From the IMG/VR virus record IMGVR_UViG_3300027906_002599, positions 1 through 37,288 of that record: 37,288 nt of DNA, one strand, 5' to 3'. Position numbers and translations under genes: made by a program. The notes beneath the pieces were generated by a model that saw only the letters and a list, made by a program, of their open reading frames with translations, had not been told where the DNA came from and made no database searches. The DNA comes from a virus. Shown here piece after piece: positions 1 through 20,150 of this stretch; within the stretch, counting starts at the first letter, position 1, and the number at the start of each line of letters is the position of its first letter.

Positions 1-112
1 ATAAATCTTTTAAAGGTGCCGCAAAACTATCTTTTACTGCTCCTTTTTCTACGAGCATTTCAGCAACTGTATCTTTGCCACTGCCCATAAATCCTGTTAT
101 TCCTATTATCAT
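1..112 (-). CDS. Deoxynucleoside monophosphate kinase, N-terminal fragment (T4 gp1 type)
   Basis: The fragment starts with ATG at 112 and runs off the left edge of the window; only about 37 residues are visible. It opens with a hydrophobic strand followed by a P-loop, GFMGSGKDTVAEML, near residues 7-20. The Lys-Asp-Thr ending of the P-loop is typical of phage dNMP kinases of the T4 gene 1 type, which phosphorylate dNMPs to dNDPs for phage DNA synthesis. It is the last visible gene of the minus-strand run that starts at gp13, 25 bp after the fifth oxygenase-like gene. Another P-loop nucleotide kinase cannot be excluded from so short a piece. Confidence 0.72.
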   Translation of the reverse strand, partial: MIIGITGFMGSGKDTVAEMLVEKGAVKDSFAAPLKDL

Positions 113-137: not shown

Positions 138-992
138 TTAGATAAACAATTTTCCGGTATCGTACATTTCTTCCATTTGTTTGAACGTTAATTCATGACT
201 GCCATGTACTCTAAGTGTTACTCTAGGTTCTCCATTAGTTTTTACTCTATGCCACTGATTAATATTTACCATGTAAGGATTATGCATACCAACATGCTCA
301 GTAATAATTTCTAATTCATCTTCCCAAACACTTGCATTGGGCCAATGACTATCAACAACCATTGTCATATCATTGAGTACAGTTGTTATCGGTTCTTGTG
401 CAATATGATAATCTTGACAAAATTGTTCTATTAACTCTAGTTCTGCATTCCACATATTTTCACTTGGTTTTGCAAACTCTAAACTACTACCTTCTTTGTC
501 TCCTAGTAATCTAAAATTACATAGACCAGGATGTCTATAAGCATCTAAAAATACAGAATTAAAATCTTCTGGTGCTGTTGCTGGTATTGATACAGGCCCT
601 TCTTTGTGCCACTGTGTAGATTTAGAAAAACATAATACAGTAACTGGCGGAGTGTTTAAACCATTTATACTCCAATTGTTTTGTAAAAAATCTGGGTTGA
701 ATGTTTCGTGTAGCCAATCTGATACTCTTCTTTTTAATTCTAAGTTTGATATAAAACCGATACCATTAAATGCTTGTTGCTTGTTATCTGAACTGTTTGA
801 CCATCTATTTGCTTTTGCTTCTGTAGGTATTTTATCAGATGTCCAATTTGTCCATCTAATTTTTCCAGACTGTACTGTGATTTCGTCTGGTATTACATTA
901 CCGTTAATCATGTCTATGTCTTGTTCTGTAAAAAAGTCTTCCGCTGTAAACGGAAACTCTACTCCAACACAATCACAATAACATTCTAGCAT
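138..992 (-). CDS. Putative Fe(II)/2-oxoglutarate oxygenase-like protein, array copy 5
   Basis: This 284-aa protein is the last of five tandem paralogues. A double-stranded beta-helix oxygenase signature is visible: His129-x-Glu131 (QWHKEGP), a middle strand NFRLLGD near 159-165, and distal His248 followed nine residues later by Arg257 (WHRV...PRVTLR). This is the HxD/E...H...R layout of Fe(II)/2-oxoglutarate dioxygenases, with Arg257 the likely 2-oxoglutarate binder. Seen in sequence: all putative metal ligands are present. Inferred: enzymatic activity and substrate, neither of which can be read here. It ends in the paralogue-specific helix (LTFKQMEEMYDTGKLF). The start overlaps the previous gene's stop at 992. 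A catalytically dead beta-helix protein or a virion-associated role is possible. Confidence 0.62.
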   Translation of the reverse strand: MLECYCDCVGVEFPFTAEDFFTEQDIDMINGNVIPDEITVQSGKIRWTNWTSDKIPTEAKANRWSNSSDNKQQAFNGIGFISNLELKRRVSDWLHETFNPDFLQNNWSINGLNTPPVTVLCFSKSTQWHKEGPVSIPATAPEDFNSVFLDAYRHPGLCNFRLLGDKEGSSLEFAKPSENMWNAELELIEQFCQDYHIAQEPITTVLNDMTMVVDSHWPNASVWEDELEIITEHVGMHNPYMVNINQWHRVKTNGEPRVTLRVHGSHELTFKQMEEMYDTGKLFI

Positions 993-1873
993 TATTTAAA
1001 AAACTCTCCTGCCTCTACCATTTGTTCTATTTGTTCAAATGTTAAATTTGTATTAGCATGTATTCTAAAAGTAACTCTAGGTGTGCCATTTGTAACTACT
1101 CTGTGCCATTTACCAACATTAACAATGTATGGATTATGTTGTCCTACATGTTTTGTAATTGGTATTAAATTTGGTTCCCAAACATTATTATGAAATAATT
1201 GTAATGTACTTGCCATAATTAAGTTCTTATGTTCTGTTGCAGTTGTCAACATAGGATCTGGTGCTGTAGAGTTTTTAATATCTTCTATAAACATTTCAAC
1301 TATTTCGTCTTCTGCTTGTTGCATTTCTTCATCTGGTTGTGCAAATTCTATATAACTGTTATCTACATCACCTAAAAGTCTAAAATTAATTACTGCTGGT
1401 GGTCTCCTAGAATTATCAAAGTCTGGGTGTGGTACAGGTCCTTCATTATGCCAACCACTAGTTTCCATAGAAAAACATAATACAGTAACTGGAGGTGTAT
1501 TAGTACCTGATGAAAATTTCCAAATCTCTTGAAAATAATCTGGGTGTAACGTTTCATTAAGCCACTCCCATACATCACGTTTTAATTTAGTATCTGTTAT
1601 TATTGCATTACCATTAAAACTACCAAAGTCTGCACGGTATCCTTCTCCAGCACCATCTGTAGACATTTTGTATGTATATCTACTCCATTTTAATTTTTCT
1701 GATTTTATAAAAGTGTCTTGACCTCTAAAAGCCGACAAGGCTCCAAAGGACTTATCTTCCATAATTTCCCCTTCTCTAGTACCGTGAATCATTTCTATAT
1801 CTTGTTCAGTAAGAAAATCGTCCTTATTAAAAGGAAAGTCTATGCCAGGTAAGTCGCAATAACAACCGTTCAT
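992..1873 (-). CDS. Putative Fe(II)/2-oxoglutarate oxygenase-like protein, array copy 4
   Basis: This is a 293-aa paralogue of the neighbouring genes. The N-terminal CYCDLPGIDFPF is nearly the same as in copies 3 and 5. The putative facial triad is His142-x-Glu144 (GWHNEGP) and His257 (KWHRV), with Arg266 nine residues after the distal His as the likely 2-oxoglutarate anchor. The conserved NFRLLGD strand lies near 163-169. Its stop overlaps the start of copy 5, and its start overlaps the stop of copy 3 by 4 bp, the usual ATGA-type coupling. There is no separate promoter, so it is probably translated from the gp13 transcript. Substrate unknown. Confidence 0.62.
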   Translation of the reverse strand: MNGCYCDLPGIDFPFNKDDFLTEQDIEMIHGTREGEIMEDKSFGALSAFRGQDTFIKSEKLKWSRYTYKMSTDGAGEGYRADFGSFNGNAIITDTKLKRDVWEWLNETLHPDYFQEIWKFSSGTNTPPVTVLCFSMETSGWHNEGPVPHPDFDNSRRPPAVINFRLLGDVDNSYIEFAQPDEEMQQAEDEIVEMFIEDIKNSTAPDPMLTTATEHKNLIMASTLQLFHNNVWEPNLIPITKHVGQHNPYIVNVGKWHRVVTNGTPRVTFRIHANTNLTFEQIEQMVEAGEFFK

Positions 1874-2682
1874 TTAAAAAATTCTCCGTTATCAACTAAA
1901 CGTTCTATTTCTTCAAACGTTAAGTCTGTATTAGCATGTATTCTAAATGTAACTCTAGGTTCTCCATTAGTATTAACTTTATGCCATTGAGATAAATTTA
2001 CAATATATGCATTATGCATACCAACATGTTCTGTTATTTTAGTTAATCCAGTTTCTTCTTCTAGCCAATGCTGGGCCGCTGTAAAAACTACACCTTCATG
2101 TTCTGCAGAATGTATCTCACCATTAACATCATTATACCATGTTTCAAAGTATTTGTCAATACATTCTTTTTCTTTTATATTTAATTCGTCATTTGCTTCT
2201 GCAAATTCTAATGTACTACCGTCTGGGTCGCCTAGCAATCTAAAGTTAATTACTGCTGGTGCTCTTGGTTTAGATACAATGTCTGTGTTTATATGTTCTG
2301 ATAAGTTTTCAGGAAACTGTATTGGTCCTTCTCTATGCCAAGCAGTTGGGTGTGAGAAACATAAAATAGAAACTGGTGGAGTTTTTCTTCCACCCATATT
2401 CCATATTTTTTGAAAGTAATCTGGATGTATAGTTTCATGTAACCATTCCCAAACATCTTTTTTTAACTGTTGGTCTGTTATTACTGCTCCGCCATTTAAG
2501 ACATCATCTTTTGACCATTCTGTTGTTGACCAATTTGCATACCAATTTATTTTTTCAGTTTGTATAGAAGGTGTCTTAGGTATTTCTTTTCTACCATAAA
2601 TCATATCTAAATCTTGTTGAGAAAGAATATCATTAGTAAAAGGTAACTCAATACCAGGACAATCACAGTAACAACCTAGCAT
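1870..2682 (-). CDS. Putative Fe(II)/2-oxoglutarate oxygenase-like protein, array copy 3
   Basis: At 270 aa this is the shortest of the five paralogues. Key residues are His116-x-Glu118 (AWHREGP), NFRLLGDPDGS near 146-156, His234 (QWHKV) and Arg243 (PRVTFR). The order and spacing match the Fe(II)/2-oxoglutarate beta-helix oxygenase pattern. The N-terminus CYCDCPGIELPF is shared with copies 4 and 5, which makes these three the closest group. It overlaps copy 2 by 7 bp upstream and copy 4 by 4 bp downstream. The Cys-rich N-terminus (three Cys in the first eight residues) is specific to this sub-group; its role is unknown. Confidence 0.62.
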   Translation of the reverse strand: MLGCYCDCPGIELPFTNDILSQQDLDMIYGRKEIPKTPSIQTEKINWYANWSTTEWSKDDVLNGGAVITDQQLKKDVWEWLHETIHPDYFQKIWNMGGRKTPPVSILCFSHPTAWHREGPIQFPENLSEHINTDIVSKPRAPAVINFRLLGDPDGSTLEFAEANDELNIKEKECIDKYFETWYNDVNGEIHSAEHEGVVFTAAQHWLEEETGLTKITEHVGMHNAYIVNLSQWHKVNTNGEPRVTFRIHANTDLTFEEIERLVDNGEFFK

Positions 2683-3623
2683 TTTAAAAACCGGTCTTCG
2701 TCTATTAATTGTTGTATATAATCAAAGGAATGTTTTTTATGTCCCATAAATCTTAAACTTACTCTAGGTGCTTCTGTTTTTATATTAACTCTGTGCCAAG
2801 AAGATAAATTTAAAAGGAATGGGTCATGGTATCCTTCTATTTTACCACAAGGTGTTAAATGACTTAACATTTCGTCACTTGATGTTTGGTCAATACTAGA
2901 TGATACGGAGATGCCACGTCCTTCAGACCACATTGTTTCTGGTTCTTTGCCATCTTGTTTCCATTTACTAATATATTCTTTGTTTAAGTTATCATATACT
3001 TCAGTAAAGTATTCATCTGGTTCTGCAACTTCTATAGAGCAATCATCAGGATCACCTATAAGTCTAAAGTTACATACAGCACTTGTACGTGATGTTTCTA
3101 TTCTGTTTTCAAATAAACTTTCGTCTGTAATTTTTCTCCAACCAGTTAAACCTTCTGTATGGAATGTACTAGGTCCACTAAATCCTATTAATGTTATAGG
3201 AACAATCTTTCTACCAGCAAAACTCCAAATGTCTGCTAGATAATCTTCATGGAATGTATCTAATGCAAACTCTCTTAACTTATACATTAAGTCTTTATCT
3301 GTTATTACACCTATGCTTGTTGGTGGTCTATATCCTAAATACTTTCTTTCTTCAAATGTTAAGTCTGCAAAATCTTGGTCTTTTTCTAATATAATATCTG
3401 TGCCAGCAAGTTTATGTTCGTTAGGACTATACATCCAATGCATTTTTTCTGTTTGTGCCATAGTCCAGCCAAACAAGTCAGGGTGTTCAACTATATCAAC
3501 TTTTTTGTTAAACCTTGCTCTGTCGTATATTAATTCGTAGTCATCGTCTGTAAATATATCTTCTACAGTAATTGGAAGTTCTAATCCTGGAAAAGAACAT
3601 AAATGATTTTTAACTTTTTGCAT
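2676..3623 (-). CDS. Putative Fe(II)/2-oxoglutarate oxygenase-like protein, array copy 2
   Basis: This 315-aa protein is the longest and a more divergent paralogue. It keeps His155-x-Glu157 (TFHTEGL), the middle strand CNFRLIGDPDD, distal His277 (WHRV) and Arg287 (APRVSLRF), ten residues after the His. Extra sequence near 60-100, including MHWMYSPNEHK, and an insertion around 225-255 distinguish it from copies 3-5. It overlaps copy 1 by 14 bp at its start and copy 3 by 7 bp at its end. The shared fold and tight coupling point to duplication within one operon. Enzymatic function is inferred only from motif conservation. Confidence 0.6.
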   Translation of the reverse strand: MQKVKNHLCSFPGLELPITVEDIFTDDDYELIYDRARFNKKVDIVEHPDLFGWTMAQTEKMHWMYSPNEHKLAGTDIILEKDQDFADLTFEERKYLGYRPPTSIGVITDKDLMYKLREFALDTFHEDYLADIWSFAGRKIVPITLIGFSGPSTFHTEGLTGWRKITDESLFENRIETSRTSAVCNFRLIGDPDDCSIEVAEPDEYFTEVYDNLNKEYISKWKQDGKEPETMWSEGRGISVSSSIDQTSSDEMLSHLTPCGKIEGYHDPFLLNLSSWHRVNIKTEAPRVSLRFMGHKKHSFDYIQQLIDEDRFLKC

Positions 3624-4458
3624 TTAGCAACTTTCCTTCATTGTGCATATCAATCCAATGTTTCATTGGATATTCTTCATTGAGCATTAATCTAAAAGTG
3701 ATTCTCGGTTCAGATGCTCTGCTATTTTCTACTCTATGCCAAGGATTAGGGTGCGTATCTAAATGTCCTAAATTTAATAAAAATGGACAATCGTATTTTA
3801 CTTTTCTGTCTATTTCTTTAACTTCTTCATTAATAAACATTACAGCATCACTATAAATGTTACTTCTTATGCTTTTATCTTCATTCCATTGTACATCAAA
3901 TGAATTTCTTCTATTAATAGACAAGTGTTCAATTTCTTTCTGAATCCTCTCATTTGGCATGCCAAACACTAAATCACTATCATTGTTTGCTCTTAGTTTT
4001 ATATTTAGTGAACAACTTGTTCTTTTATGACCGAGTTTTTGCTCCAAATGGGAACCAGTATAAGATTCGAAGTTAGTCCAAGGATAAAATCCTTCATAGT
4101 GCCATCTAGAAGTTTCACTTGGTTTTGTCATTACTAATGTTGAAGGAAAAATTTTTCTTGGCATTTGATAGAACTTAGGTGAGAGGAAATCTTTTGGAAA
4201 AATATCATTTGCCCATTCATTTAATGTTCTTGATAATTCTTTACTAATTAACCAACCTATTTGTAAGTCTGGTGCTTCTGTATTTGTAGTCCATGCAATA
4301 TTTTTTGCGTTATCAAAAACTGCCTGGCTATGTTGATAGCCATCTTGTAAATCAAAATCTTCTTGTAATAATAATTCGTCTGCTGTAAAAGGAAGAGGGT
4401 AGTCCAGTAACTCAGGTATATCCCAAAAAGTGTCGGGTCTCATCTTAGCCCATAACAA
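3610..4458 (-). CDS. Putative Fe(II)/2-oxoglutarate oxygenase-like protein, array copy 1
   Basis: This 282-aa gene lies directly after gp13 and is the most divergent copy. Residues His120-x-Glu122 (RWHYEGF), His241 (NPWHRVEN) and Arg252 (EPRITFRL) keep the putative iron and 2-oxoglutarate positions; the His-to-Arg gap is two residues longer than in copies 3-5. The NFRLLGD strand is replaced by NIKLRAN. The start at 4458 overlaps the gp13 stop by 14 bp; a second ATG at 4443, one base after the gp13 stop, is an alternative. A short AGG lies about 7 nt before the 4458 ATG. Confidence 0.55.
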   Translation of the reverse strand: MLWAKMRPDTFWDIPELLDYPLPFTADELLLQEDFDLQDGYQHSQAVFDNAKNIAWTTNTEAPDLQIGWLISKELSRTLNEWANDIFPKDFLSPKFYQMPRKIFPSTLVMTKPSETSRWHYEGFYPWTNFESYTGSHLEQKLGHKRTSCSLNIKLRANNDSDLVFGMPNERIQKEIEHLSINRRNSFDVQWNEDKSIRSNIYSDAVMFINEEVKEIDRKVKYDCPFLLNLGHLDTHPNPWHRVENSRASEPRITFRLMLNEEYPMKHWIDMHNEGKLLNAKS

Positions 4459-5212
4459 AACCTAACGGTGAGTTGCCTTCTTCCATGTTGTGTAATCCGG
4501 CTATTAACTGTTCCATTTCAGTTATTGCTTCAGCCTTTAAGGCGTCTCCGTTAAGTGTTGTTGCTCCACCTGGTCCAGGAAGTCCACCTGGGAATTTGCT
4601 TCTTGCTTCACCTAACATCATTTTGCTTTGTGCTAGGGCGAAATTCGATAGCCAATCTGCGGCATAAACATCCTTGATTAAAACACTTTCTGGTATAAAG
4701 TTATTAACTCCTACTGCAATATCCTCTGCGTGTGCTACGTTTCGTAATATGGTTAATTCTTTGGTATTCCTATTAAATGTAAAGTTGTACTCGCTACCAA
4801 ACACACGACCAATAGTTTCTTTGTATTGTGCAAATGCATCAAATACTGCAAGTCCACCTATTTGTCCTGCTTGTAACATGTACATATTATTGAAAGCCAC
4901 ATCGAACGGATCAAAGTTTGTGCCACCGCCACTATTAGTACCAATACCTCTTCTATATAAACGTTTAACATCTATAACTTCATCAGGTAATACATATTTT
5001 GTAATACCATCTTGGGTTTGAATAAAAATAACTGCTTCTTCAACACTACCACTACTCAACTGTCTATACTTTTGTATAGATTTATTGATTGCTATATCGT
5101 AATGCTCTCTATCCAACTCAACATCTACCATTCCATCAGCCAATCTTAACTGAATCTCTTTAATGATTTCGTCTCTGTTGTTGTAGCCTATTTGGTCTAT
5201 TCTCTGTGCCAT
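4445..5212 (-). CDS. 13: Neck protein, T4 gp13-like head completion protein
   Basis: The 255-aa protein resembles T4 gp13 in its N-terminal part: RDEIIKEIQLRLADGMVDVE, a helix of the type HYDIAINKSIQKY, then a beta-rich stretch ending in DVKRLYRRGIG. The C-terminal half has a helix with the Gly/Pro-rich loop FPGGLPGPGG and an EMEQLIAGL helix, as in marine T4-like neck proteins. gp13 joins filled heads to tails together with gp14. The ATG at 5212 is preferred over a GTG five codons upstream, because a late-promoter octamer (5218-5225) lies 5 nt before it and would remove the GTG from the transcript. gp14 is encoded 6 kb away on the other strand, an unusual split. Confidence 0.8.
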   Translation of the reverse strand: MAQRIDQIGYNNRDEIIKEIQLRLADGMVDVELDREHYDIAINKSIQKYRQLSSGSVEEAVIFIQTQDGITKYVLPDEVIDVKRLYRRGIGTNSGGGTNFDPFDVAFNNMYMLQAGQIGGLAVFDAFAQYKETIGRVFGSEYNFTFNRNTKELTILRNVAHAEDIAVGVNNFIPESVLIKDVYAADWLSNFALAQSKMMLGEARSKFPGGLPGPGGATTLNGDALKAEAITEMEQLIAGLHNMEEGNSPLGFVMG

Positions 5213-5217
5213 ACTAC

Positions 5218-5225
5218 TATTTATC
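5218..5225 (-). promoter_or_regulatory. T4-type late promoter octamer before gp13
   Basis: The minus strand reads GATAAATA, close to the T4 late consensus TATAAATA. Its last base is only 5 nt before the gp13 ATG at 5212. No Shine-Dalgarno lies between them, so the transcript would start at or within a few bases of the start codon. Confidence 0.6.
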
Positions 5226-5236
5226 ACTTTTTGCCT

Positions 5237-6400
5237 TTAAAAGGCTTTCAATATGATAGTAGTATCGTTCATTCTTCCGTTTAATTTGGTGGGTGTTGTT
5301 TTAACTTCGTCAAATGCTTTAGCAAAACGTGTTTTAGCATTTCCAGTCCAACTATTAATTTGTTCTGCTGGCTTTCTAAGTGTCTTTTGTACACTAGTTT
5401 CTTCATCAAAATCTTGTATAGTAGTGCCTTTTACAAGTAATCCTGCACCAGGTCTGCCTAATCCACGTGGATCTTTGTTCTTTGCGTGGTAGACTCCTAC
5501 TTTACGAGTCTTTGTATTGTATATCCATAATTCGTTTGCGTAGACGACGTCTGTGGGCGAAATAGATGCTATTCCTAGTGTGCCATCGTTCACTTGATAT
5601 TTCATTTTCTTTATAATAACATCTTTGCTTCTTGCTCTAGGTTTACGTTGTTTCCTATTTGCTTTACCAGTAAGTATAACAGCATCACAGGCTGAGTTTA
5701 TTTTTTCAAAAAATGCTACATAGTCTTTCTTCATTTTCTTATCCATAAAACTATATGCTTCTTTTAATTGGTCACATGTACCTGCTAAATTTTCTTTTGC
5801 TTCTTCAGTAATCATTTCATACTGGTCTTTAATAAGTTTAGCATGTGCAGGTTTTACAACACCGCCGCCATATACTTTCATATCCCTTTCAGGGTCAAAC
5901 TTCTTAAGGTCAAACTTTTCATTTACAATGAATTCATCTAACAAGCCGTCCCAGTCACCACATAAGTCAGTAATCTGTTCTAACATTCTTTGTTGTATAG
6001 ATACTTTAGGTGGAGCCTTTACTTTCTTCTTTTCTACTTCTTCTAAAACTGTCTTACCTTGCATAATCAGTTCTTCCTGTTTTTTATCATAAAACTTTGA
6101 TAATCTCTCTGGCATATATCCTAGTTTTTTCCAAAGCCAGGCATACTTGGCACTACTGCTAAATCGCCAATCTGGATTTTTAAGAATAACCTTAATATCC
6201 TCTGGTGCCCAACCACTTGCTTCTTTAACCCATTGCCTATATGCGGCAACACCTTCCTTTGTAGATATTTCAGAATGCACAAAATAGTCACAACTATCAA
6301 ATGCTTTTTCTTGTTCCTCAGGATTAGTCAACCCAATGAACTTTTTCCAATCTGGTTCCTTGGTTACATAAACGGTTCTTTGCTTTTTCTTTCTAGCCAT
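5237..6400 (-). CDS. Conserved hypothetical protein of marine T4-like phages
   Basis: This 387-aa soluble protein has no signal peptide or membrane segment. The N-terminus is very basic (MARKKKQR). It is followed by an alpha-helical region rich in Lys/Glu to about residue 250, then a second basic stretch (KANRKQRKPRARSK), then a beta-rich C-terminal part with NELWIYNTKTRKVGVY and a Gly-rich turn (PRGLGRPGAG). I do not recognise a known enzymatic motif; the basic patches suggest nucleic acid contact. The start is placed at the ATG at 6400. A longer reading from a TTG at 6466 would sit on the -35 box of the sigma70-type promoter and is unlikely. It is the first gene after that promoter, so it is probably expressed early or constitutively. 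Confidence 0.7.
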   Translation of the reverse strand: MARKKKQRTVYVTKEPDWKKFIGLTNPEEQEKAFDSCDYFVHSEISTKEGVAAYRQWVKEASGWAPEDIKVILKNPDWRFSSSAKYAWLWKKLGYMPERLSKFYDKKQEELIMQGKTVLEEVEKKKVKAPPKVSIQQRMLEQITDLCGDWDGLLDEFIVNEKFDLKKFDPERDMKVYGGGVVKPAHAKLIKDQYEMITEEAKENLAGTCDQLKEAYSFMDKKMKKDYVAFFEKINSACDAVILTGKANRKQRKPRARSKDVIIKKMKYQVNDGTLGIASISPTDVVYANELWIYNTKTRKVGVYHAKNKDPRGLGRPGAGLLVKGTTIQDFDEETSVQKTLRKPAEQINSWTGNAKTRFAKAFDEVKTTPTKLNGRMNDTTIILKAF

Positions 6401-6437
6401 TGTTTTATTAAAATTACTCCAAACAATATTGCTAGTT

Positions 6438-6466
6438 AGTATAACTTCAAAAAATTTCTTTGTCAA
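6438..6466 (-). promoter_or_regulatory. Sigma70-type promoter (TTGACA-17-TATACT)
   Basis: The minus strand has TTGACA at 6466-6461, a 17-nt spacer and TATACT at 6443-6438. This is a near-perfect host sigma70 promoter, lying between a terminator (6492-6517) and the ATG at 6400. The same two hexamers and spacing recur before tRNA-Ser (10977-11005). Confidence 0.85.
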
Positions 6467-6519: not shown

Positions 6520-7068
6520 TTAAAAATTGCTAGAGTTATGTCTGCCGTCACTATAAATTGGTCTATATTCAAAAGGTTGAACGCATTGAGGAGCATTATA
6601 AACCCCTCCCCAAAGTGTAGTATAAGTTACACATCCATCCCTATTGTTACTACCAACCCATTTACCATTTGCATCTTTTTGCCTCAATTTGCAATATGAG
6701 ACATAATTATTCATCCCACCAACACTAATATTACTGCCTGGTTGGTCAGGGTGTTTGCAATCTTGACCTATTACATCTCCGTTCAAATCACAATCGTAAG
6801 TAGACGCGGCAGGCTTTAACGGCCCGAAGCAATATGGATTGGTGGGTGGCGGTGGATCATCATCGCCATCACGTCTGGAGTTTTCTGTAACTTTTCCAAA
6901 TTCTATATTATCGTCTGATTGTGTTTTTGTCCAAAGAGGTCCTTCAGAAACATATATACCCGCACTTTCAGGCACAGTATATTGTGTTCCATCATTGTAA
7001 TAAATCATTGTTTCGGCTAATGAGAGTGTGGACATCATTACTCCTAACAACAAAATAATATACTTCAT
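6520..7068 (-). CDS. Predicted secreted protein of unknown function
   Basis: This 182-aa protein starts with a clear signal peptide (MKYIILLLGVMMSTLSLA, cleavage likely before Glu19). The mature part has DGTQYTVP, a Pro-rich linker (DDPPPPTNPY) near residue 95 and about six Cys spread over the C-terminal half, which suggests disulfides and a periplasmic or extracellular location. The start is the ATG at 7068, which has a strong GGAGG about 7 nt upstream; longer readings would overlap the FabZ gene in another frame. A perfect TATAAATA lies 56 nt upstream and a terminator follows. I do not recognise the family. It may belong with the exported curli-type proteins, but nothing links them beyond export. 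Confidence 0.7.
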   Translation of the reverse strand: MKYIILLLGVMMSTLSLAETMIYYNDGTQYTVPESAGIYVSEGPLWTKTQSDDNIEFGKVTENSRRDGDDDPPPPTNPYCFGPLKPAASTYDCDLNGDVIGQDCKHPDQPGSNISVGGMNNYVSYCKLRQKDANGKWVGSNNRDGCVTYTTLWGGVYNAPQCVQPFEYRPIYSDGRHNSSNF

Positions 7069-7124
7069 AGTATATCCTCCGTTTATTGTTGAGGTGTATG
7101 ATACCGCCGTAAATCCACCAACTG

Positions 7125-7132
7125 TATTTATA
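7125..7132 (-). promoter_or_regulatory. Late promoter TATAAATA before the secreted-protein gene
   Basis: This is an exact match to the T4 late promoter consensus on the minus strand. It overlaps the stop codon of the FabZ-like gene and lies 56 nt before the ATG at 7068, leaving room for a leader with the GGAGG ribosome site. Confidence 0.8.
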
Positions 7133-7550
7133 GTTTTTTGGCAGTTAGACCTATTGTAGCAGATGCTACACGTGATTCTCCATCGAATACTTTGCAATCA
7201 TAGAAGATATGATTAAGTTTACGTTTGGTAAGTTTGGCTGTAAGTCTTAATCTAGTACCTGGAAATACAGGAAATCTAAACTTACATTTGTCTACACTAG
7301 TAACAAAAGTAACATAATCTTCATGTTTAAGTTCATCTTGTTCTTTTCCTGCTAGATGTAATGCATGGAGACCGGCACATTGATTCATTCCTTCGATAAT
7401 ATAGACACCGGGCCAAATTTTTACATGAGGGAAGTGTCCTTCTAATACTGGATGAGCATTATGCACCATATATGTTGCTTCAACTTCTTCATCATTTAAG
7501 ATAGTGTGTTCATCTATTAGTGCAATAGGATGTCTGTGTGGTAGTTCCAT
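7128..7550 (-). CDS. fabZ: FabZ-like 3-hydroxyacyl-ACP dehydratase (hot-dog fold)
   Basis: At 140 aa this is the usual FabZ length. The N-terminal LPHRHPIALID matches the FabZ LPHRYPFLLVD motif. The central EGHFPHVKIWPGVYIIEGMN carries His39 and Glu53, 14 residues apart, as for the FabZ catalytic His/Glu pair. FabZ dehydrates 3-hydroxyacyl-ACP in type II fatty acid synthesis, and related hot-dog proteins act on other acyl thioesters. The first MELPHR leaves no N-terminal extension. It sits downstream of the radical SAM and FNR genes on the same strand. A late-type octamer (7557-7564) lies 6 nt before the ATG, with no Shine-Dalgarno. A fatty-acid gene is unexpected in a T4-like phage. Substrate specificity cannot be read. 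Confidence 0.82.
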   Translation of the reverse strand: MELPHRHPIALIDEHTILNDEEVEATYMVHNAHPVLEGHFPHVKIWPGVYIIEGMNQCAGLHALHLAGKEQDELKHEDYVTFVTSVDKCKFRFPVFPGTRLRLTAKLTKRKLNHIFYDCKVFDGESRVASATIGLTAKKL

Positions 7551-7571: not shown

Positions 7572-9428
7572 CTACAGCGATTCTTTATATTCTTGTACAG
7601 ATAGTGTTCTAGGGACATCTTCATTAAAAAGTGTTACAGTTTCATATCTATTATGTTTATTAATGTCAAATATTCTATTAAAATATGTGCTATAATCTTG
7701 AAACATTTGGTATCTTAGGTCGTTTGAATTCTTTACAGGATCAAAGTCTTGCCAATACTTGTTGTGTCTAAATTGTACTGTTGTTTGATGTGCTATATGG
7801 TGTGATTGTTGTGTAGATAATCCGTGTTTGTTTTTAGTTAATAAAATGCCTTCCCATACTTTACGGTCATCTTGTATAGTATATCCTTCTTCTTCTAAAT
7901 TAGTTTGTATGCTACTAGTTGTTTTTGTTGGGTCTGATTTAGAATAATCCGGTTGTACCTGTCTAATTGTATAAAGTTGTACAACTGTTTGGTCTAATTT
8001 ATTATAATCCATATCTATTAATTTATAATGCATTTCTTTTATACCTTCTAAAGTATCTTCTGGTAATCCATACATAAAGTTAGAATGTAAGAACACATTT
8101 TTAAATTTATCTGCTTTAAGTTCTCTAATATATGCCATTTGTTCTTCGGGATGCCAACCTTTACCGATTGAAACAGCACTATCAGGTATTAATGTTTCTA
8201 TACCGTAATGAGCATATTCAAGTCCACTTTCTAGTAGAATATCTTCTTGCTTTAATCTGTTCTGTAAATCTAATCTTAAAAAACAAGAATACGTTAAAGG
8301 TATATTATGTTTTGTTTTTATTTCTGCTATTCTTTCTAATTTTGCAGTATCATCATTTAGTGTATCATCTGTTATCCAATATCTACTTACTCCGTACTCT
8401 TCCCAATTACGTTTTAATTCATCTTCAAGTCTTGACGTACTTCTTGTATAAGTGCCTTTTGTTTTTCCTATTAAATTAAACTCACAGAATGTACATTTAA
8501 AAATACAACCTCTACCTAGTTCTAATCCAATACGTTGGTTTGGTAAAATAACATCTTCGTCAAAATATTCCATTGTGCTGTTATAAATGTCAAGCATACT
8601 TTTAGGATCACTGTAAGACTCTTTGCTGTTTCCTTCTTCTAAGTCTTTTAGCATATCTCTAATAGTTACGTCTGCATATCCAAACATACGAATATCTATA
8701 TCATCTAAAGGAGTCTTATTTTTACTAACACCACCAAACTCTTTTGTGTAATTATATTGTACTCCTCCTATAACTAATTTAGTGTTAGGATTTTGTTCTA
8801 ATATCCACGGTTTAATTAAATGTTGCCTACCTGGAGGGAAAAACGAACTATTCAATAAACCATATTGGTCTTTATGAAATGAAAATACTTGACCAAACAT
8901 TACTGCTTTAGTGTTTTCTCCAACAAATTTTTGTATAATTTTATGTACAGTATCTTCACTTACATGTAAAAGGTTGTGGATAACTTGTACTGTATAGCCT
9001 AATTTTCTTATTTCATGTGCAACTTTATCACTGCCCATAGCACGACCATCATGTTGGTCTAAAGAGGGCCAAGTTAAATAATATCCAGCATTTTTAAGTT
9101 TATCTTCGCCATTAGCAGTACTTAAAAGTTCTTTTCTAGATGGTAATTTATAACATTGTTCTTCAAAGAATTTTGCTTTTCCCATATATTCAGTATGAAA
9201 AAAGTCGTCTGACCATGACTCGCCTGGCTTATACATTTCCTTTAAAATCATTTCATACTCTCTGCCACGTTGAGGATCAGAAGCAAAGATTAATACATCA
9301 ACAGGAGTGTGTTCGAAATCTTTGTCTATTTCGATAGCAAGTTTTATGTCTTTTTGATTTTTCCAGTCTATACCAGGATCTCCACCTGGTCCTGACCAAT
9401 TATACCAATCTTGAAGAACGTCTTTCAT
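7572..9428 (-). CDS. Radical SAM protein, possibly with an N-terminal B12-binding-like domain
   Basis: This is a 618-aa protein. The radical SAM cluster motif C308-x3-C312-x2-C315 (GRGCIFKCTFCEF) is intact and would hold a 4Fe-4S cluster to cleave S-adenosylmethionine. Downstream strands (YWITDDTLND, YSCFLRLDL, YGIETLIPDS, NFMYGLPEDT) fit the radical SAM TIM barrel. The part before the cluster, about 120-290, includes RKLGYTVQVIHN and KLVIGGVQYNY, reminiscent of the Rossmann-like cobalamin-binding domain in B12-dependent family members; the classic DxHxxG signature is not clear, so this part is weak. The reaction is unknown. It lies just after a ferredoxin-NADP reductase, a plausible supplier of electrons for the cluster. 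The ATG at 9428 is 5 nt after a GATAAGTA octamer. Confidence 0.85.
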   Translation of the reverse strand: MKDVLQDWYNWSGPGGDPGIDWKNQKDIKLAIEIDKDFEHTPVDVLIFASDPQRGREYEMILKEMYKPGESWSDDFFHTEYMGKAKFFEEQCYKLPSRKELLSTANGEDKLKNAGYYLTWPSLDQHDGRAMGSDKVAHEIRKLGYTVQVIHNLLHVSEDTVHKIIQKFVGENTKAVMFGQVFSFHKDQYGLLNSSFFPPGRQHLIKPWILEQNPNTKLVIGGVQYNYTKEFGGVSKNKTPLDDIDIRMFGYADVTIRDMLKDLEEGNSKESYSDPKSMLDIYNSTMEYFDEDVILPNQRIGLELGRGCIFKCTFCEFNLIGKTKGTYTRSTSRLEDELKRNWEEYGVSRYWITDDTLNDDTAKLERIAEIKTKHNIPLTYSCFLRLDLQNRLKQEDILLESGLEYAHYGIETLIPDSAVSIGKGWHPEEQMAYIRELKADKFKNVFLHSNFMYGLPEDTLEGIKEMHYKLIDMDYNKLDQTVVQLYTIRQVQPDYSKSDPTKTTSSIQTNLEEEGYTIQDDRKVWEGILLTKNKHGLSTQQSHHIAHQTTVQFRHNKYWQDFDPVKNSNDLRYQMFQDYSTYFNRIFDINKHNRYETVTLFNEDVPRTLSVQEYKESL

Positions 9429-9441: not shown

Positions 9442-10173
9442 TTAATCTACAAAGGCTCTTTCAAGTACAAAATCTCCGGCTTCTCCTAAATTACCTTCTT
9501 GAAAACCTAAGTTTTCAAAAAAGTCTCTACATTCATAATTCATTTCTGGTCCACCGCATACCATTACTCTGTCAGTATCTTTATTAAATCCGCCATCTGT
9601 AAAATTTTGTATGTGTAGCCAAAAACGTCCTTTACGTTCATAATCTTCTTGGGTACATGTATCGTAGTAAGTAAATGTAAATGGTGTGTCTGCAATAGTG
9701 TTTACTGCATTTGTTATTTCTGTTTGATATGTATGTTCTGCATGTGTTCTTGTTGTATGTACTAATGTTACATTATTAAACTTTTCGTATGTTTGAGGGT
9801 CTCTAATAATACTCATAAACGGTGCTAAACCTGTTCCTGTGCATAATAAAAACAAATTATCTGCTTTAGTTAAATTATCAATCGTTAAAGTGCCCGTAGT
9901 CTTTGGCATACATATAACTTCATCTCCAACTTTTAAATGCTGTAAACGACTTGTAAGAGGGCCGTCTGGTACCTTAATACTTAAGAACTCTAAGTGGTCT
10001 TCGTAATTTGCACTAGCAATACTGTATGCTCTTAATAATGGCTTGTCATCTACCATTAATCCAATCATTGCAAATTCACCGTTTACAAAACGAAACGATT
10101 GATTTCTTGTTGTTTTAAAACTGAATGTTTTATCGGTCCAATGATGAACCCATGTTACTGTTTCTTTATTCAA
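9442..10173 (-). CDS. fpr: Ferredoxin/flavodoxin-NADP+ reductase (Fpr type)
   Basis: This 243-aa FAD protein transfers electrons between NADPH and ferredoxin or flavodoxin. Visible motifs are RAYSIAS (48-54) for FAD, GPLTSRL (71-77), CTGTGLAPF (111-119) for the NADP-binding domain, MVCGGPEM near 204-211, and a C-terminal VLERAFVD matching the Fpr-type end. The length fits bacterial Fpr (about 250 aa). The start appears to be TTG at 10173, overlapping the TGA stop of the preceding gene, so translational coupling is likely. It sits directly upstream of the radical SAM gene, and its product could reduce the ferredoxin used by that enzyme. Phage-encoded FNR is uncommon; confidence in the family is high. 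Confidence 0.88.
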   Translation of the reverse strand: MNKETVTWVHHWTDKTFSFKTTRNQSFRFVNGEFAMIGLMVDDKPLLRAYSIASANYEDHLEFLSIKVPDGPLTSRLQHLKVGDEVICMPKTTGTLTIDNLTKADNLFLLCTGTGLAPFMSIIRDPQTYEKFNNVTLVHTTRTHAEHTYQTEITNAVNTIADTPFTFTYYDTCTQEDYERKGRFWLHIQNFTDGGFNKDTDRVMVCGGPEMNYECRDFFENLGFQEGNLGEAGDFVLERAFVD

Positions 10174-14858: not shown

Positions 14859-16724
14859 TTATTTGTAAAGTTTTCTTATTTCACCATCGAACAGCGGAGC
14901 ATAAATTTTTACAGGCTCCTCTTTTCCTTTTACAGTAACTTCATCGAGTTCACGACATGCAATATCCGTAAGTTGCATGTATGTAAATTCACTCAATAAG
15001 ATAGGAGTGTCTTGTTTTCTAGTCTCGGCTTCTAATCTAGCACCTAAGTTTACAGCATCGCCTACAACACTATAATCTAATCTAGTTTCAGCACCCATAT
15101 TACCAACAATACATGTACCTGTGTTTACACCTGTACCAAATTTAACTCTAGGCAATCCTAATTTTTCCATTTCTTTTTCTAATTCATCACCAAGTAATTC
15201 AATTTCTATTGCAGTTTTAACTGCCATCTCTGCATGATTTTCACATGGTATTGGTGCATTCCAAAATGCCATTATACAGTCGCCCATGAACTTATCTATC
15301 GTTCCACCGTTGGCTAATACTATGTTTGTCATCTTATCTAAGAAACTATTGATTAATTCTACTAATCCTTCAGGGTCATCATTCTTCATATACTGCTCTG
15401 ATATAGGAGTAAAGCCGACTATATCTGCAAATAAGAAACTCATCTCTTTTCTTTCTCCGCCTAACTTCATTAAACTTGGATCTTTTACTATCATATCTAC
15501 ATAGTCAGGTGAAATATATGTGCCAAATTGTCCTTTTATTTGCTGTCTTAACTTGTATTGCTTGTAAAAATTGTTAAAAGCACTCTGGGTAAACACTAAA
15601 AATCCACTAATTACCGGGAAAGTTGCGTCCATTAACACTAGGTGATTTGTGTAAAACCACACACTTCCATAGGCTTCTGTACCCAAAATTAGCATGGAAA
15701 TAGGTGCTGTCCACAGTAAAGGTAACTTATAAACAGCAAAAGCAATCAATATCATACCCAACAGGGCTCCTAAGAGCTCGTATAAAGCACTTAATTCGTT
15801 TCGCTGTATATTTGATCCATCTATAAAATTCTGTAGCATATGGCCCTGTATATGCTGTGGATACATAAGTCCTTTTGGAGTAGGAACAGGGTTTTGAACA
15901 CCTTCTGCTGTAACACCTAGTATAATAAACTTGCCACCTAGGTCTGGTAGACTGTTTATATCCACATATTCTACTTCTTCAAAGGTGTTATTAAAACGTA
16001 TAAATGCTGTTCCAATTGGTTGTGTTACTATAGGATCAAAAGGTGGTACTGCAAATTCTTGTATTCCTATCTCAGATGTCTTTAACATATAACTTGGTTT
16101 TTGTGTATATGTTCTTAACATCTCAATAGCAAAACTAGGGTAAATTTTTTCATTTACTGTTATTGCTAATGGGTAAGTTCTTGTAACTAAATCTGGTTGT
16201 GGTGCTGAAGCAAGTACTCCAATACCCTCTGCTTGTTCTTCAAGGATAGAAACGTTTGTTACGAGATTGGGCCACTTTAGCAAAGATTGGGTCGGGTTCA
16301 AAGGTCCTATCGTGCCTGTTCCAATGTGCGGGCCTGAACTCCTTATCCCCTTCGTTGAAGGTGTCTGGCTTAAAACTATGCCGTTTCCTTTCATCCAACT
16401 TGCTAAAGTTTCGTCTCCGCCAAATCGGTCCGTCTCGGGGAACATCACGGTCAAGCCAATGATACCACCATTCTTCTGTCTGATGTCGTGAATTACCTGG
16501 GCAAAATTCTGTCTGGGCCATGGCCATTGTCCCCATTGTTGTAAACTTTTCTCGCCAACATTAATAATAACAATTTCATCACTTTGTTTTGGCTCGTCTA
16601 ATAGTTGTAAAGCATCGAACGTTTGTAGTCGTAGACTTTGTATAGGCGTAGGATCTAATATTTTTACTGTCGTGAGTAAACAGATTGTTACCACAACTGC
16701 CCAACCACTGTATAACCACTTCAT
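14859..16724 (-). CDS. CHASE2-domain class III adenylate cyclase
   Basis: The 621-aa protein has an N-terminal membrane segment (about 6-20), a periplasmic CHASE2 sensor (about 30-300, with DEIVIINVGEKSL, WPWPRQNFAQVI and GGKFIILGVTAEG), three membrane segments (about 312-380) and a cytoplasmic class III cyclase domain (about 425-615). Catalytic features are intact: metal Asp434 (FADIVGFT), Lys478 and metal Asp482 (IDKFMGD), Asn559 and Arg563 (GDAVNLGAR). Lys478 favours ATP; Ser552 sits where Asp or Thr is usual. It should convert ATP to cAMP in response to an envelope signal. The ATG at 16724 is chosen because a late octamer lies 5 nt upstream; longer readings run into the next gene. CHASE2 cyclases and FecR proteins often co-occur in bacteria, as here. 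A bacterial origin is likely. Confidence 0.92.
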   Translation of the reverse strand: MKWLYSGWAVVVTICLLTTVKILDPTPIQSLRLQTFDALQLLDEPKQSDEIVIINVGEKSLQQWGQWPWPRQNFAQVIHDIRQKNGGIIGLTVMFPETDRFGGDETLASWMKGNGIVLSQTPSTKGIRSSGPHIGTGTIGPLNPTQSLLKWPNLVTNVSILEEQAEGIGVLASAPQPDLVTRTYPLAITVNEKIYPSFAIEMLRTYTQKPSYMLKTSEIGIQEFAVPPFDPIVTQPIGTAFIRFNNTFEEVEYVDINSLPDLGGKFIILGVTAEGVQNPVPTPKGLMYPQHIQGHMLQNFIDGSNIQRNELSALYELLGALLGMILIAFAVYKLPLLWTAPISMLILGTEAYGSVWFYTNHLVLMDATFPVISGFLVFTQSAFNNFYKQYKLRQQIKGQFGTYISPDYVDMIVKDPSLMKLGGERKEMSFLFADIVGFTPISEQYMKNDDPEGLVELINSFLDKMTNIVLANGGTIDKFMGDCIMAFWNAPIPCENHAEMAVKTAIEIELLGDELEKEMEKLGLPRVKFGTGVNTGTCIVGNMGAETRLDYSVVGDAVNLGARLEAETRKQDTPILLSEFTYMQLTDIACRELDEVTVKGKEEPVKIYAPLFDGEIRKLYK

Positions 16725-16729
16725 GCATG

Positions 16730-16737
16730 TATTTATC
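16730..16737 (-). promoter_or_regulatory. Late promoter octamer before the cyclase gene
   Basis: GATAAATA on the minus strand ends 5 nt before the ATG at 16724 and overlaps the last codons of the upstream TM-protein gene. No ribosome binding site lies between. Confidence 0.6.
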
Positions 16738-17203
16738 GTCCGGCTATAATGCTTACTGTCATCATGACTACCGCAAAAATAACAATACATAAACATACTA
16801 CTGCTGTTACATCTATTGCAAATTTTTTACTTTCTGCTTTACGTTTAGCCTCCATTAATCTGGCTTGTCTAATGACACGTCTTTCACGCATCATATCTTC
16901 GTAAAAATTTTGCTGTCCTGTATAGATTAAATACTCTCTCAACTCTTTTTCAAGTTGTGCCATTTTATGTTTTGCGGCTGTAATTTCTAAAGCCTGTGCT
17001 TCTACACTACCACCAGCCATATATTTTTTTGCTAAAGATGGATTTTTGCTGTATTGATTTGCTTCTGTAATTGCATCTCTGGCATCAAAAAACCGACCGA
17101 AATACCCGGTGACATCTTCAATATCCCGACCCATTTCTACTGCTTTTTTGATTCCGGTAAATGCCTGACTAGCCATCGATATGGCTACGGCGACTTCAAT
17201 CAT
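16733..17203 (-). CDS. Helical protein with a C-terminal membrane anchor
   Basis: This 156-aa protein has helices from the N-terminus (VAVAISMASQAFTGIKKAVE), a charged coiled region near 80-125 (MRERRVIRQARLMEAKRK) and one hydrophobic segment near 130-153 (VTAVVCLCIVIFAVVMMTV). This gives a tail-anchored inner-membrane topology. I recall similar proteins in other marine T4-like phages, annotated only as hypothetical; a holin or spanin-like role is possible but unproven. A strong AGGAGG lies about 8 nt before the ATG, and a GATAAATA octamer 41 nt upstream gives it its own late promoter inside the curli cluster. Confidence 0.7.
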   Translation of the reverse strand: MIEVAVAISMASQAFTGIKKAVEMGRDIEDVTGYFGRFFDARDAITEANQYSKNPSLAKKYMAGGSVEAQALEITAAKHKMAQLEKELREYLIYTGQQNFYEDMMRERRVIRQARLMEAKRKAESKKFAIDVTAVVCLCIVIFAVVMMTVSIIAGR

Positions 17204-17244
17204 CCAAGTGACCTCCTACGTCATTCTTGTCTACCTACAGAAAT

Positions 17245-17252
17245 TATTTATC
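17245..17252 (-). promoter_or_regulatory. Late promoter octamer before the 16733-17203 gene
   Basis: GATAAATA on the minus strand overlaps the curlin-like gene's stop codon. It leaves a leader of about 35 nt holding the AGGAGG site. Confidence 0.65.
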
Positions 17253-18157
17253 TAATCTTGTGTTATATTGATAGTGCAACCACCGACGGTTACACATGTT
17301 TGAGTTAAATTATAATTTTGTGCTGTGCCACTATTTTGTGTTAAATTTAACGTTGTTGGTTGGGTACCATATAGAGTTATATTGGCATTATGAGCACCAT
17401 TCCCTTTTTGTACTCCACTTATTTGACTATAGTCTTGATAACTTTTATAGTTTACTGTTTTGTTTCCATCGTTAATTTGTTTCCACCAAATGTCTTGTTC
17501 GTCACCATATATCCATATATTTGCAGTATGACTGCCTGGTGTATTAGTATTACCGTTTGTTTGATATCCAACAATAACATTATTATCTCCATGATAATCT
17601 AATATAACTTTATGACCACCATGCTCAGAACCATCACCTTGACTAAATGTTGTATCATTTATGTTGTTAAGTCCAACACCTTGACCCCATCTCATTAAAT
17701 TGTTGTCTCCCCAAAAGTGAAAGCCTGCTTCAGTATATCGACAATTATTGTCTTCTGTACATTTTTGACTAATTTCTATTTCATTATCTACGCCGTCTAC
17801 GTCTCCACACCAAGTTGAATTAGGGCAATTTACTTTACCCCAAGTACTTGTAAATCCTGCAAATTGCTTCTCGCCTACTTGCGTAATTTTAACAGAGTTT
17901 CCATCTCCAGATACAGAGAATTCAACTTCATTGTCTTCTCCCAACTGCCCAATCCACATAGTTAAATTATCTACATTGCCATATTGTAATCCTAAGTCCA
18001 AATCAATATGCTGGTCTTTACCTTGTTGGTCAATATTTAAAACTAAATCGTCACCAACCTGGTCTATATGAACATGGTTGTGTCCTTCACCGGCAAATGC
18101 ATCATAACTTGCTGTTGCACAAAATATTGCTAATAATGTTCCTAATATATACTTCAT
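17252..18157 (-). CDS. Curlin-like (CsgA/CsgB-type) secreted amyloid repeat protein 2
   Basis: The 301-aa protein has a signal peptide (MKYILGTLLAIFCATASYDAFA, 22 residues). The mature part is repetitive and rich in Gln, Asn and Gly. It has curlin-like strand-turn units such as VHIDQVGDDLVLNIDQQG, GDGNSVKITQVGE and GDNNVIVGYQTNGN, and ends in INITQD. This alternation of Gln-x-Gly-x-x-Asn turns and short strands is the hallmark of curli subunits, which stack into cross-beta fibres. Six Cys occur, unusual for curlin. It starts directly after the FecR stop with no gap. The CsgG/CsgF genes in the same operon support export through the curli pore. Which unit nucleates and which polymerises is unknown. 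Confidence 0.8.
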   Translation of the reverse strand: MKYILGTLLAIFCATASYDAFAGEGHNHVHIDQVGDDLVLNIDQQGKDQHIDLDLGLQYGNVDNLTMWIGQLGEDNEVEFSVSGDGNSVKITQVGEKQFAGFTSTWGKVNCPNSTWCGDVDGVDNEIEISQKCTEDNNCRYTEAGFHFWGDNNLMRWGQGVGLNNINDTTFSQGDGSEHGGHKVILDYHGDNNVIVGYQTNGNTNTPGSHTANIWIYGDEQDIWWKQINDGNKTVNYKSYQDYSQISGVQKGNGAHNANITLYGTQPTTLNLTQNSGTAQNYNLTQTCVTVGGCTINITQD

Positions 18158-19363
18158 CTAATCTACCTGTATAATTGTTATAAATGTTCCTTCGCAATCA
18201 TTAAGACATATTGTGGTGTCTTTTAAGTTACTATCTTCTATAAAGATTTTAGCACTATTACCTGACTGTTGTTTAATACTTACTGTATTAGTTACTTGTC
18301 TAAAGAAGAATATTTTACCATCTTCTGTAATAGTATTAAACTGCGTTGTGTCATCAAAACCTAAAGCAGTTCCTGTAATTTTATCGGTTCCTAAACTTCC
18401 TTCTGAATTTTCTCCGCCTTTACTTTTACTTTTTCCGCCTACTTCTACACTTTCCTCTTCTATAATTTCTAACAAATCTTGTAAGAAATCTACATCTAAG
18501 AAGTTAATGTCTAACTGACTAAACTCTAAATCTTCTGTTGTATCTTTCAATACATCTGCTTCAATGGCATTAGCATCTAATCCATCAAAGTCTAATAATC
18601 CACCATCTCCTTTTGATTCTTCTGCTTGTTCATCAACTGCTTCTGTAATCTCAGTTGGTTCACTTACAATAAACATGTTATCAATCATGTTTAAATCCAA
18701 ATCTGCAAGAAGAACTGGATTAGTTGGTGCTTGTTCATATGTACTAACCATTACAGCCTGAAATGCTTCAGTTAATACTTGTACACCACCATCATTTGTG
18801 ATAGTAATACTACCACTTGGAGCACAACCTTCTTCTAAACGTACTCCGTCTGTACATCTTTGGTCTGGTAATAATATTACCAAACTTCTTCCCAACTCAT
18901 CTACAGTAGTAGTAAAGTCGGTTCCCCTAATACCTATAGTAGCAGTAGGAGTTTTTACAGTTATATTTTCTTTTGGTACTAACCCTAACCCGCCAGTGGC
19001 AAATCGTGCAGTCCCTTGCACGAAATCTAATGCCATCCTGCTTTTACTGGGGTCAGGATCGTACACATATTCATTAATAACCATGTATGTGTGTTCCGTT
19101 AAACTAACTAGTGTGTCATCTATAAACTTTAGTTTAATACGACCATCAATCGTTTCAACTTCGTCCATGCTCTGTATGTCTGTGTCTAGTTCTGCAATCA
19201 ATTTGTCACCAGACGTCCTTTTAATACTTCCAGGTGAGCCACTTTGCTCAAATACTCCGCCGATACTTTCATTGGCACCGGCGGAAATACTGTATGTTGC
19301 ACTAAACAATAAAAATGCGTATAAACAAACTTTAGTCAGTTTGTCTGATACTAACTGATGCAT
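18158..19363 (-). CDS. FecR-domain exported protein with a curlin-like C-terminal tail
   Basis: The 401-aa protein begins with a signal-type hydrophobic segment (VCLYAFLLFSATYSISA). A FecR domain follows at about 35-190: GSIKRTSGDKL, IKLKFIDDTLVSLTEHTYM, VINEYVYDP, FVQGTARFATGGL, and VKTPTATIGIRGTDF, the classic FecR core. An acidic, Leu-rich middle (about 230-330) is followed by a last 60 residues with curlin-like units (NTVSIKQQSGNSAKIFIED) and the end ITIIQVD, like the ends of both neighbouring curlins. FecR domains sense or relay signals in the periplasm, or act as surface structural modules. ATG 19363 is used; GTG 19369 is an alternative. It overlaps curlin 1 by about 30 bp. Confidence 0.85.
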   Translation of the reverse strand: MHQLVSDKLTKVCLYAFLLFSATYSISAGANESIGGVFEQSGSPGSIKRTSGDKLIAELDTDIQSMDEVETIDGRIKLKFIDDTLVSLTEHTYMVINEYVYDPDPSKSRMALDFVQGTARFATGGLGLVPKENITVKTPTATIGIRGTDFTTTVDELGRSLVILLPDQRCTDGVRLEEGCAPSGSITITNDGGVQVLTEAFQAVMVSTYEQAPTNPVLLADLDLNMIDNMFIVSEPTEITEAVDEQAEESKGDGGLLDFDGLDANAIEADVLKDTTEDLEFSQLDINFLDVDFLQDLLEIIEEESVEVGGKSKSKGGENSEGSLGTDKITGTALGFDDTTQFNTITEDGKIFFFRQVTNTVSIKQQSGNSAKIFIEDSNLKDTTICLNDCEGTFITIIQVD

Positions 19364-20150
19364 TTTCACTATCTAAATCAACGTCGATTTTACCAGGACA
19401 TACAGGACTACATGTAGCCGCATTACTTTGTAAAAACTGGAAATCACCATCTGAACCTACTAAAACAAATTTTAAGTAGTGGTCAGAGTTACCAGTTTGT
19501 TTTGATGTAATAGCATTATCATCACCAGTAATGTTCATTTCCCAAGTTGCGGAACCGGCATCAACTTTAATACCACTTTGTGAAAAAGCAGATGTACTGT
19601 TCCAACCAGAACCTGGAGTTCCACCCCAAGTTTTAGTATTATTAACAGCACTTCTAAAGTCGTTTCTGTCCCCTAGTATTGTTAAATCCATATTAAGGTT
19701 GTCTGCGGCAAGGTCTCCACCGATGTCAACATCAAATATGTTAGTATCACCTTGAATATTCCAAAGCATATCAACACTATCTGCACTACCTGTTGCACCT
19801 ATGTTCATATCTACTGAGTTACTATCTCCTAAGAAATATAAATCCCAAACAGTTGAACCAGAACCGTCTCCAGTCCATGCACCAAATATTTCATTACTAT
19901 CACCATCTTGGATAATATCAATAATCAAGTTTGCTCCAGTAATGACTAAATCACTACCATCAGAAGCATCACCTGTTATTTTGTTACCACTACCAGCCTG
20001 TAATATGGTCAAAGTTAAATTATCCCCTTGTTGGTCCAATAAAACTTCGTTATCGTCAGCACCTAAGGCAGGAGCATAAAGTCCAACCGTAAGTCCCATA
20101 ATCGCGAAGACATTGATTGCAAAATTTCTAAATAAATTTCTAGTCTTCAT
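19332..20150 (-). CDS. Curlin-like secreted amyloid repeat protein 1
   Basis: This 272-aa protein has a signal peptide ending near residue 31 (LYAPALGA). The mature part is acidic and Gly/Asn/Asp-rich, with repeated strand-turn units about 20-25 residues apart: DQQGDNLTLTILQAGSGN, IIDIIQDGDSNEI, LYFLGDSNSVDMN, WNIQGDTNIFDVD, LTILGDRNDF and MNITGDDNAI. It ends in VSIRQTD. The (L/I)xxxGDxN turn resembles curlin repeats, with Asp replacing some Gln/Asn. It lies directly after csgG, overlapping it by 11 bp, with GGAG before the ATG. Its likely role is a fibre subunit exported by CsgG. The family call rests on repeat pattern and context. Confidence 0.75.
   Translation of the reverse strand: MKTRNLFRNFAINVFAIMGLTVGLYAPALGADDNEVLLDQQGDNLTLTILQAGSGNKITGDASDGSDLVITGANLIIDIIQDGDSNEIFGAWTGDGSGSTVWDLYFLGDSNSVDMNIGATGSADSVDMLWNIQGDTNIFDVDIGGDLAADNLNMDLTILGDRNDFRSAVNNTKTWGGTPGSGWNSTSAFSQSGIKVDAGSATWEMNITGDDNAITSKQTGNSDHYLKFVLVGSDGDFQFLQSNAATCSPVCPGKIDVDLDSENASVSIRQTD

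Follow-up and report, generated by a model that had tools for sequence, protein, structure and literature searches.

A variable array of putative HxE-type 2-oxoglutarate oxygenases at the gp13/dNMP kinase junction of marine phages related to PA5oct

The window analyzed here, a 37,288-nt stretch of viral DNA, carries five full-length paralogous genes on the minus strand (138–4443), which lie closely packed as one unit, with gp13 on one side and a dNMP kinase gene on the other. We consider it likely that all five encode active Fe(II)/2-oxoglutarate (2OG) oxygenases. They belong to a gain-and-loss array at a fixed site, which is probably made late and may act as an oxidative tailoring module. The major capsid protein shares 70% identity with its counterpart in Pseudomonas phage PA5oct, and gp13 shares 51% with the PA5oct neck protein. 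The source phage is a marine relative of this giant Pseudomonas phage. The genes of the region are as follows.

1..112, minus strand: first part of the dNMP kinase gene, truncated by the window end; flanks the insertion site downstream
138..992, minus strand: P1, putative oxygenase paralogue, 284 aa, motif WHKE, Arg 9 residues after the distal His; adjoins the dNMP kinase gene
992..1873, minus strand: P2, putative oxygenase paralogue, 293 aa, motif WHNE; 1-nt overlap with P1
1870..2682, minus strand: P3, putative oxygenase paralogue, 270 aa, motif WHRE; 4-nt overlap with P2
2676..3623, minus strand: P4, putative oxygenase paralogue, 315 aa, motif FHTE; lowest dN/dS between orthologues (0.02–0.05)
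3610..4443, minus strand: P5, putative oxygenase paralogue, 277 aa from the ATG at 4443, motif WHYE; the most divergent paralogue, adjoins gp13
4445..5227, minus strand: gp13-type neck/head-tail adaptor Ad2 (phrog_211, E 1.7e-29); upstream border of the insertion site
5237..6466, minus strand: gene of the phrog_11903 family; its position upstream of gp13 is conserved
7128..7550, minus strand: FabZ-like hot-dog protein; co-occurs with the oxygenase array
7572..9428, minus strand: radical-SAM protein resembling B12-binding radical-SAM families; accompanies the array in most array phages
9442..10173, minus strand: ferredoxin/flavodoxin-NADP reductase-like protein; also in array-free relatives, at another place

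ORF calling placed the five consecutive minus-strand genes at 138–992, 992–1873, 1870–2682, 2676–3623 and 3610–4458, with overlaps of 1, 4, 7 and 14 nt at the junctions within the array. The ATG at 4443, one base past the stop codon of gp13, is a more likely start for P5 than the TTG at 4458, judging from the starts of its orthologues. The dNMP kinase gene begins approximately 25 nt after P1, with its start at 112, and the near-identical contig L006 has the complete kinase ORF (PF21448), followed by the tail sheath and tail tube genes. In an all-versus-all BLASTP comparison the five proteins shared 21–44% identity (E 1e-82 to 1e-7); P1–P3 are 41–44% identical to each other, and P4 and P5 match the others at 21–28% (E 1e-39 to 1e-7). 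Chance resemblance among the five is ruled out by these E-values together with the family-wide conservation. The spacing from the distal His to the Arg is 9, 9, 9, 10 and 11 residues in the five paralogues. The original prediction had described five overlapping tandem paralogues, all with HxE and with an Arg 9–11 residues after the distal His, and the ORF layout, the BLASTP results and the motifs agree with this description.

The family set comprises 75 distinct ORFs from approximately 30 marine virus contigs. Five residues are each present in 71 of the 71 sequences that cover the position: the first and the distal His, the Glu two positions after the former, the Arg 9–11 residues after the latter, and one Asn; a single Trp is shared by 74 of 74. 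These six are the only invariant columns of the alignment, in which conservation has a median of 36% per column. Across the family, 11 kinds of residue occupy the middle of HxE, and no HxD member was found among the 75 ORFs. The His/Glu/His/Arg positions do not vary, while most of the protein does; the free variation that would have spoken against the original prediction was not found. Such conservation is what one would expect of copies that are all maintained as enzymes. We infer that the proteins bind Fe(II) and 2OG: the His-x-Glu...His triad would hold Fe(II), and the Arg would hold 2OG.

AlphaFold2 models with family alignments as input had a mean pLDDT of 88.4 and a pTM of 0.87 for P3 (model m7c317f471ba0) and 87.2 and 0.88 for P5 (model mf4400899c977). 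P3 and P5 are ~25% identical to each other, and both models form a double-stranded beta-helix, the fold implied by the original assignment to 2OG oxygenases; a contrary fold was not found in either. Foldseek searches against the PDB gave a best E of 5e-4, with 2OG oxygenases leading the list and some other cupin-fold proteins also present. Using VIA-align, the top match of P3 was type II proline 3-hydroxylase (1e5r; Z 9.6, rmsd 3.4, 148 residues aligned), with further matches to HalB, BesD, WelO5, FIH, OGFOD1 and AspH. P5 matched a nucleoside-antibiotic hydroxylase, WelO5, OGFOD1, HalB, BesD and ALKBH5, and also ALKBH3 and ALKBH7. Among viral predicted structures, matches with E near 1e-7 were to uncharacterized phage proteins, and weaker ones were to annotated phage 2OG oxygenases. 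The family has these features of the 2OG oxygenase superfamily: the beta-helix core in the models, the His-x-Glu...His motif and an Arg soon after the distal His, which in the P3 model lies at the start of the strand that follows the His-bearing strand. Matches of predicted models at Z 8–10 establish a shared fold only, and since the VIA-align rows lie within 1–2 Z of each other, the fold gives the 2OG oxygenase type and not the substrate. Type II proline 3-hydroxylase, BesD and HalB, WelO5, FIH and AspH share the beta-helix with the P3 model at Z 8 to 9.6, but are just 7–14% identical to P3, and their functional classes are tied. Proline 3-hydroxylase and FIH use HxD, and the halogenases are without the carboxylate. 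The array enzymes are probably hydroxylases, because the carboxylate missing in radical halogenases is present in all copies.

Searches of Pfam, PHROGs and NCBIfam gave no match naming an oxygenase family and nothing credible, and sequence searches of the PDB gave no credible match to any solved chain. A tblastn search of 50,697 phage records yielded no relative, and scanning prokaryote genomes for the pattern confirmed no family member. Two PHROG hits were set aside: of 30 members, one hit phrog_37994 (virion structural protein; E 0.004) and six hit phrog_6840 (no function; best E 0.0009); neither says anything on the function of the family. VioC, AsnO and some JmjC demethylases have H-x-E, with glutamate replacing aspartate in the facial triad. 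The array family has this Glu in common with them and no credible sequence match to a solved chain. JmjC oxygenases bind 2OG through a Lys on strand IV; no JmjC model in Pfam matched the array family, which instead has its conserved basic residue after the distal His. With its invariant HxE triad, this putative oxygenase family is one that the sequence libraries searched do not cover.

Multi-copy 2OG oxygenases in phages are already known from cyanophages; the array family adds an HxE variant to them. Cyanophages carry 1–5 2OG-Fe(II) oxygenase genes, whose function is untested (PMC3037559), the phage S-SCSM1 carries 24, likewise untested (PMC9602691), and a 2026 survey noted that 2OG oxygenases are widespread in marine phages (PMC12774648). 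Such enzymes are common in ocean phages, sometimes with many in one phage. The oxygenases of T4-like cyanophages (PF13759, PF13640, PF05721; for example in P-SSM2) likewise belong to marine T4-related phages with several genes per genome, and the neighboring pair PSSM2_159/160 of P-SSM2 resembles the adjacency in the array. However, in the 100–149 kb stretch of P-SSM2 the oxygenases are scattered and gp13 is directly followed by gp14, and the cyanophage proteins have ~185–210 aa compared with 270–315 aa in the array family. Five oxygenases from P-SSM2 and Syn19 have H-x-H at the aligned position, where the array family has H-x-E. HHalign between the array family and these five gave a probability of 2%, with few rows on the cyanophage side, and no credible PHROG match or sequence link to cyanophage-type oxygenases was found. 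The H-x-H motif and the missing profile link in these five proteins suggest that the array family is a variant form among phage 2OG oxygenases.

The junction was surveyed in the best 80 of 589 gp13 relatives, of which 75 span the region from gp13 to the kinase gene. In these 75 loci, 57 have no family member, five have one, five have two, four have three, three have four and one has five; the counts include a rare copy outside the junction. The family is absent from PA5oct and from a 250-kb relative. In most of the 57 array-free loci, as in PA5oct, gp13 and the kinase gene nearly abut, whereas the order in array contigs spanning the site is gp13, array, kinase, sheath. The linkage to gp13 noted in the original prediction takes the form of a shared insertion site and operon. 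The number of copies at this fixed site changes through gain and loss (1 to 5), and the oxidizing enzymes made by these phages seem to form a shifting set. Several array phages share 89–99% gp13 identity and have arrays that differ in the number and kind of copies. Identity of gp13 to that of the window is at least 80% in array phages and at most 78% in array-free phages, so that presence of the array fits one clade. Because the site holds anywhere from 0 to 5 copies in related phages, comparing otherwise similar phages could reveal the role of the enzymes. Family copies also occur elsewhere nearby, beside the reductase gene (L064 and L065) and between phrog_11903 and gp13, there in the opposite orientation (L017). 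Other genes were seen at the junction as well. A SAM-dependent methyltransferase gene lies between the array and the kinase gene at L036:2970–3839, and likewise at L037:700–1572, on a contig that begins inside the array. One array-free phage has a radical-SAM protein with a SPASM-like C-terminus at the junction (L100:2983–4017), and another has a 206-aa ORF with no Pfam or PHROG match, whose motif IPKCGSTS recalls sulfotransferases (L114:735–1352).

In the tree, copies cluster by array position across phages and thus form positional orthologue groups: a gp13-proximal group (P5), a second group (P4) and a distal group (P1–P3 and their kin) with more recent duplications. P1 is ~76% identical to its L015 orthologue. 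Between orthologues of P1, P3, P4 and P5, dN/dS is 0.02–0.28 (NG86), and orthologue pairs of these four copies are under purifying selection. The closest pair for P2 gave a dN/dS of 0.44 at 53% identity, which is too diverged to judge well. The tree and the orthologue dN/dS support the earlier idea of repeated duplication with selection on the active site. It is very improbable that the proteins have lost enzyme function and now serve in the virion or neck, or as a hetero-oligomer. The position between gp13 and the sheath genes and a copy number that varies, as in decoration proteins, would suit such reuse of the beta-helix, but a scaffold has no need of metal and 2OG positions that are invariant in 71 sequences, and 1 to 5 copies beside a gp13 that is ~80–99% identical are unsuited to an essential structural part. 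A non-enzymatic structural role was rejected on the basis of the invariant active site. Beyond the active site the retained copies have diverged, which suggests that they serve several related substrates and do not just raise the dose of one enzyme. Because the array is part of a structural operon, the enzymes are probably made late, together with the virion proteins. The T4-like late promoter word TATAAATA was not enriched in the window, and no late promoter was identified.

Array phages have, in the region from the gp14 position to phrog_11903, genes for an NADP reductase, B12-type radical-SAM-like proteins and a FabZ-like protein. Among loci spanning both regions, the FabZ-like gene is present in 7/7 with the array and 0/18 without it, and a radical-SAM gene in 6/7 and 0/18, respectively; in the array phage L065, the stretch seen contains no radical-SAM gene. 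A record-wide check of a few relatives found the reductase in two array-free records, and in the array-free records one weak radical-SAM match and no FabZ-like match. The reductase is therefore not exclusive to array phages. The association with the radical-SAM and FabZ-like genes is suggestive only, because all array phages form one clade, and it may reflect a single historical event.

Our best guess is that the array, with the upstream B12-type radical-SAM and FabZ-like genes, would form a phage-encoded oxidative tailoring module; the methyltransferase or radical-SAM/SPASM gene at the junction in some relatives would fit such a module. A protein or peptide residue is a strong candidate for the substrate, at somewhat less than an even chance, and the same can be said of a small molecule or lipid, whereas a nucleic acid is an unlikely one. 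It is conceivable, though rather doubtful, that the junction is a docking site for protein-tailoring enzymes, namely the 2OG oxygenases, the methyltransferase and the radical-SAM/SPASM protein, and that the expanding array and the B12-type radical-SAM enzymes place several oxidative modifications on phage or host proteins late in infection. If this is true, the phages would encode a post-translational modification system with a changeable enzyme set. Auxiliary metabolism, with a free amino acid or other small molecule as substrate, or with depletion of host 2OG, is a serious possibility without being the likelier case. Among the best fold matches are enzymes that use free amino acids (type II proline 3-hydroxylase, proline cis-4-hydroxylase, BesD and HalB), the FabZ-like gene suits work on small molecules or lipids, and modulation of 2OG has been proposed for cyanophages by Sullivan et al. 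2010 (PMC3037559). However, protein and nucleic-acid hydroxylases score within ~1 Z, so that the fold does not decide, the array sits in a virion operon, and five diverging active enzymes would be unnecessary for 2OG drawdown alone. Hydroxylation of phage or host DNA or RNA by AlkB- or TET-like enzymes is quite unlikely. The matches of P5 to ALKBH5, ALKBH3 and ALKBH7 and the dNMP kinase gene directly after the array point in this direction, but the kinase gene lies beside gp13 in array-free phages too, and the Pfam and PHROG searches linked the paralogues to no AlkB or TET family.

The region upstream of the array has further features. The radical-SAM genes (7572–9428 in the window) occur in related phages in one to three tandem copies, and are a second family that is expanding in the region. 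A 225-aa ORF without a family match (6520–7197, minus strand) has an internal start from which the product would likely be secreted (MKYIILLLGVMMSTLSLAE). At 14859–21120 on the minus strand, the window has in a row genes for a CHASE2-adenylate/guanylate cyclase, a curlin-repeat protein, a FecR-domain protein, a second curlin-repeat protein and CsgG. Curli operons with CsgF/CsgG have been reported in pelagimyophages (PMC7029224), and the genes at 14859–21120 form a curli-like cassette that includes a cyclase and is carried by a jumbo-type phage.
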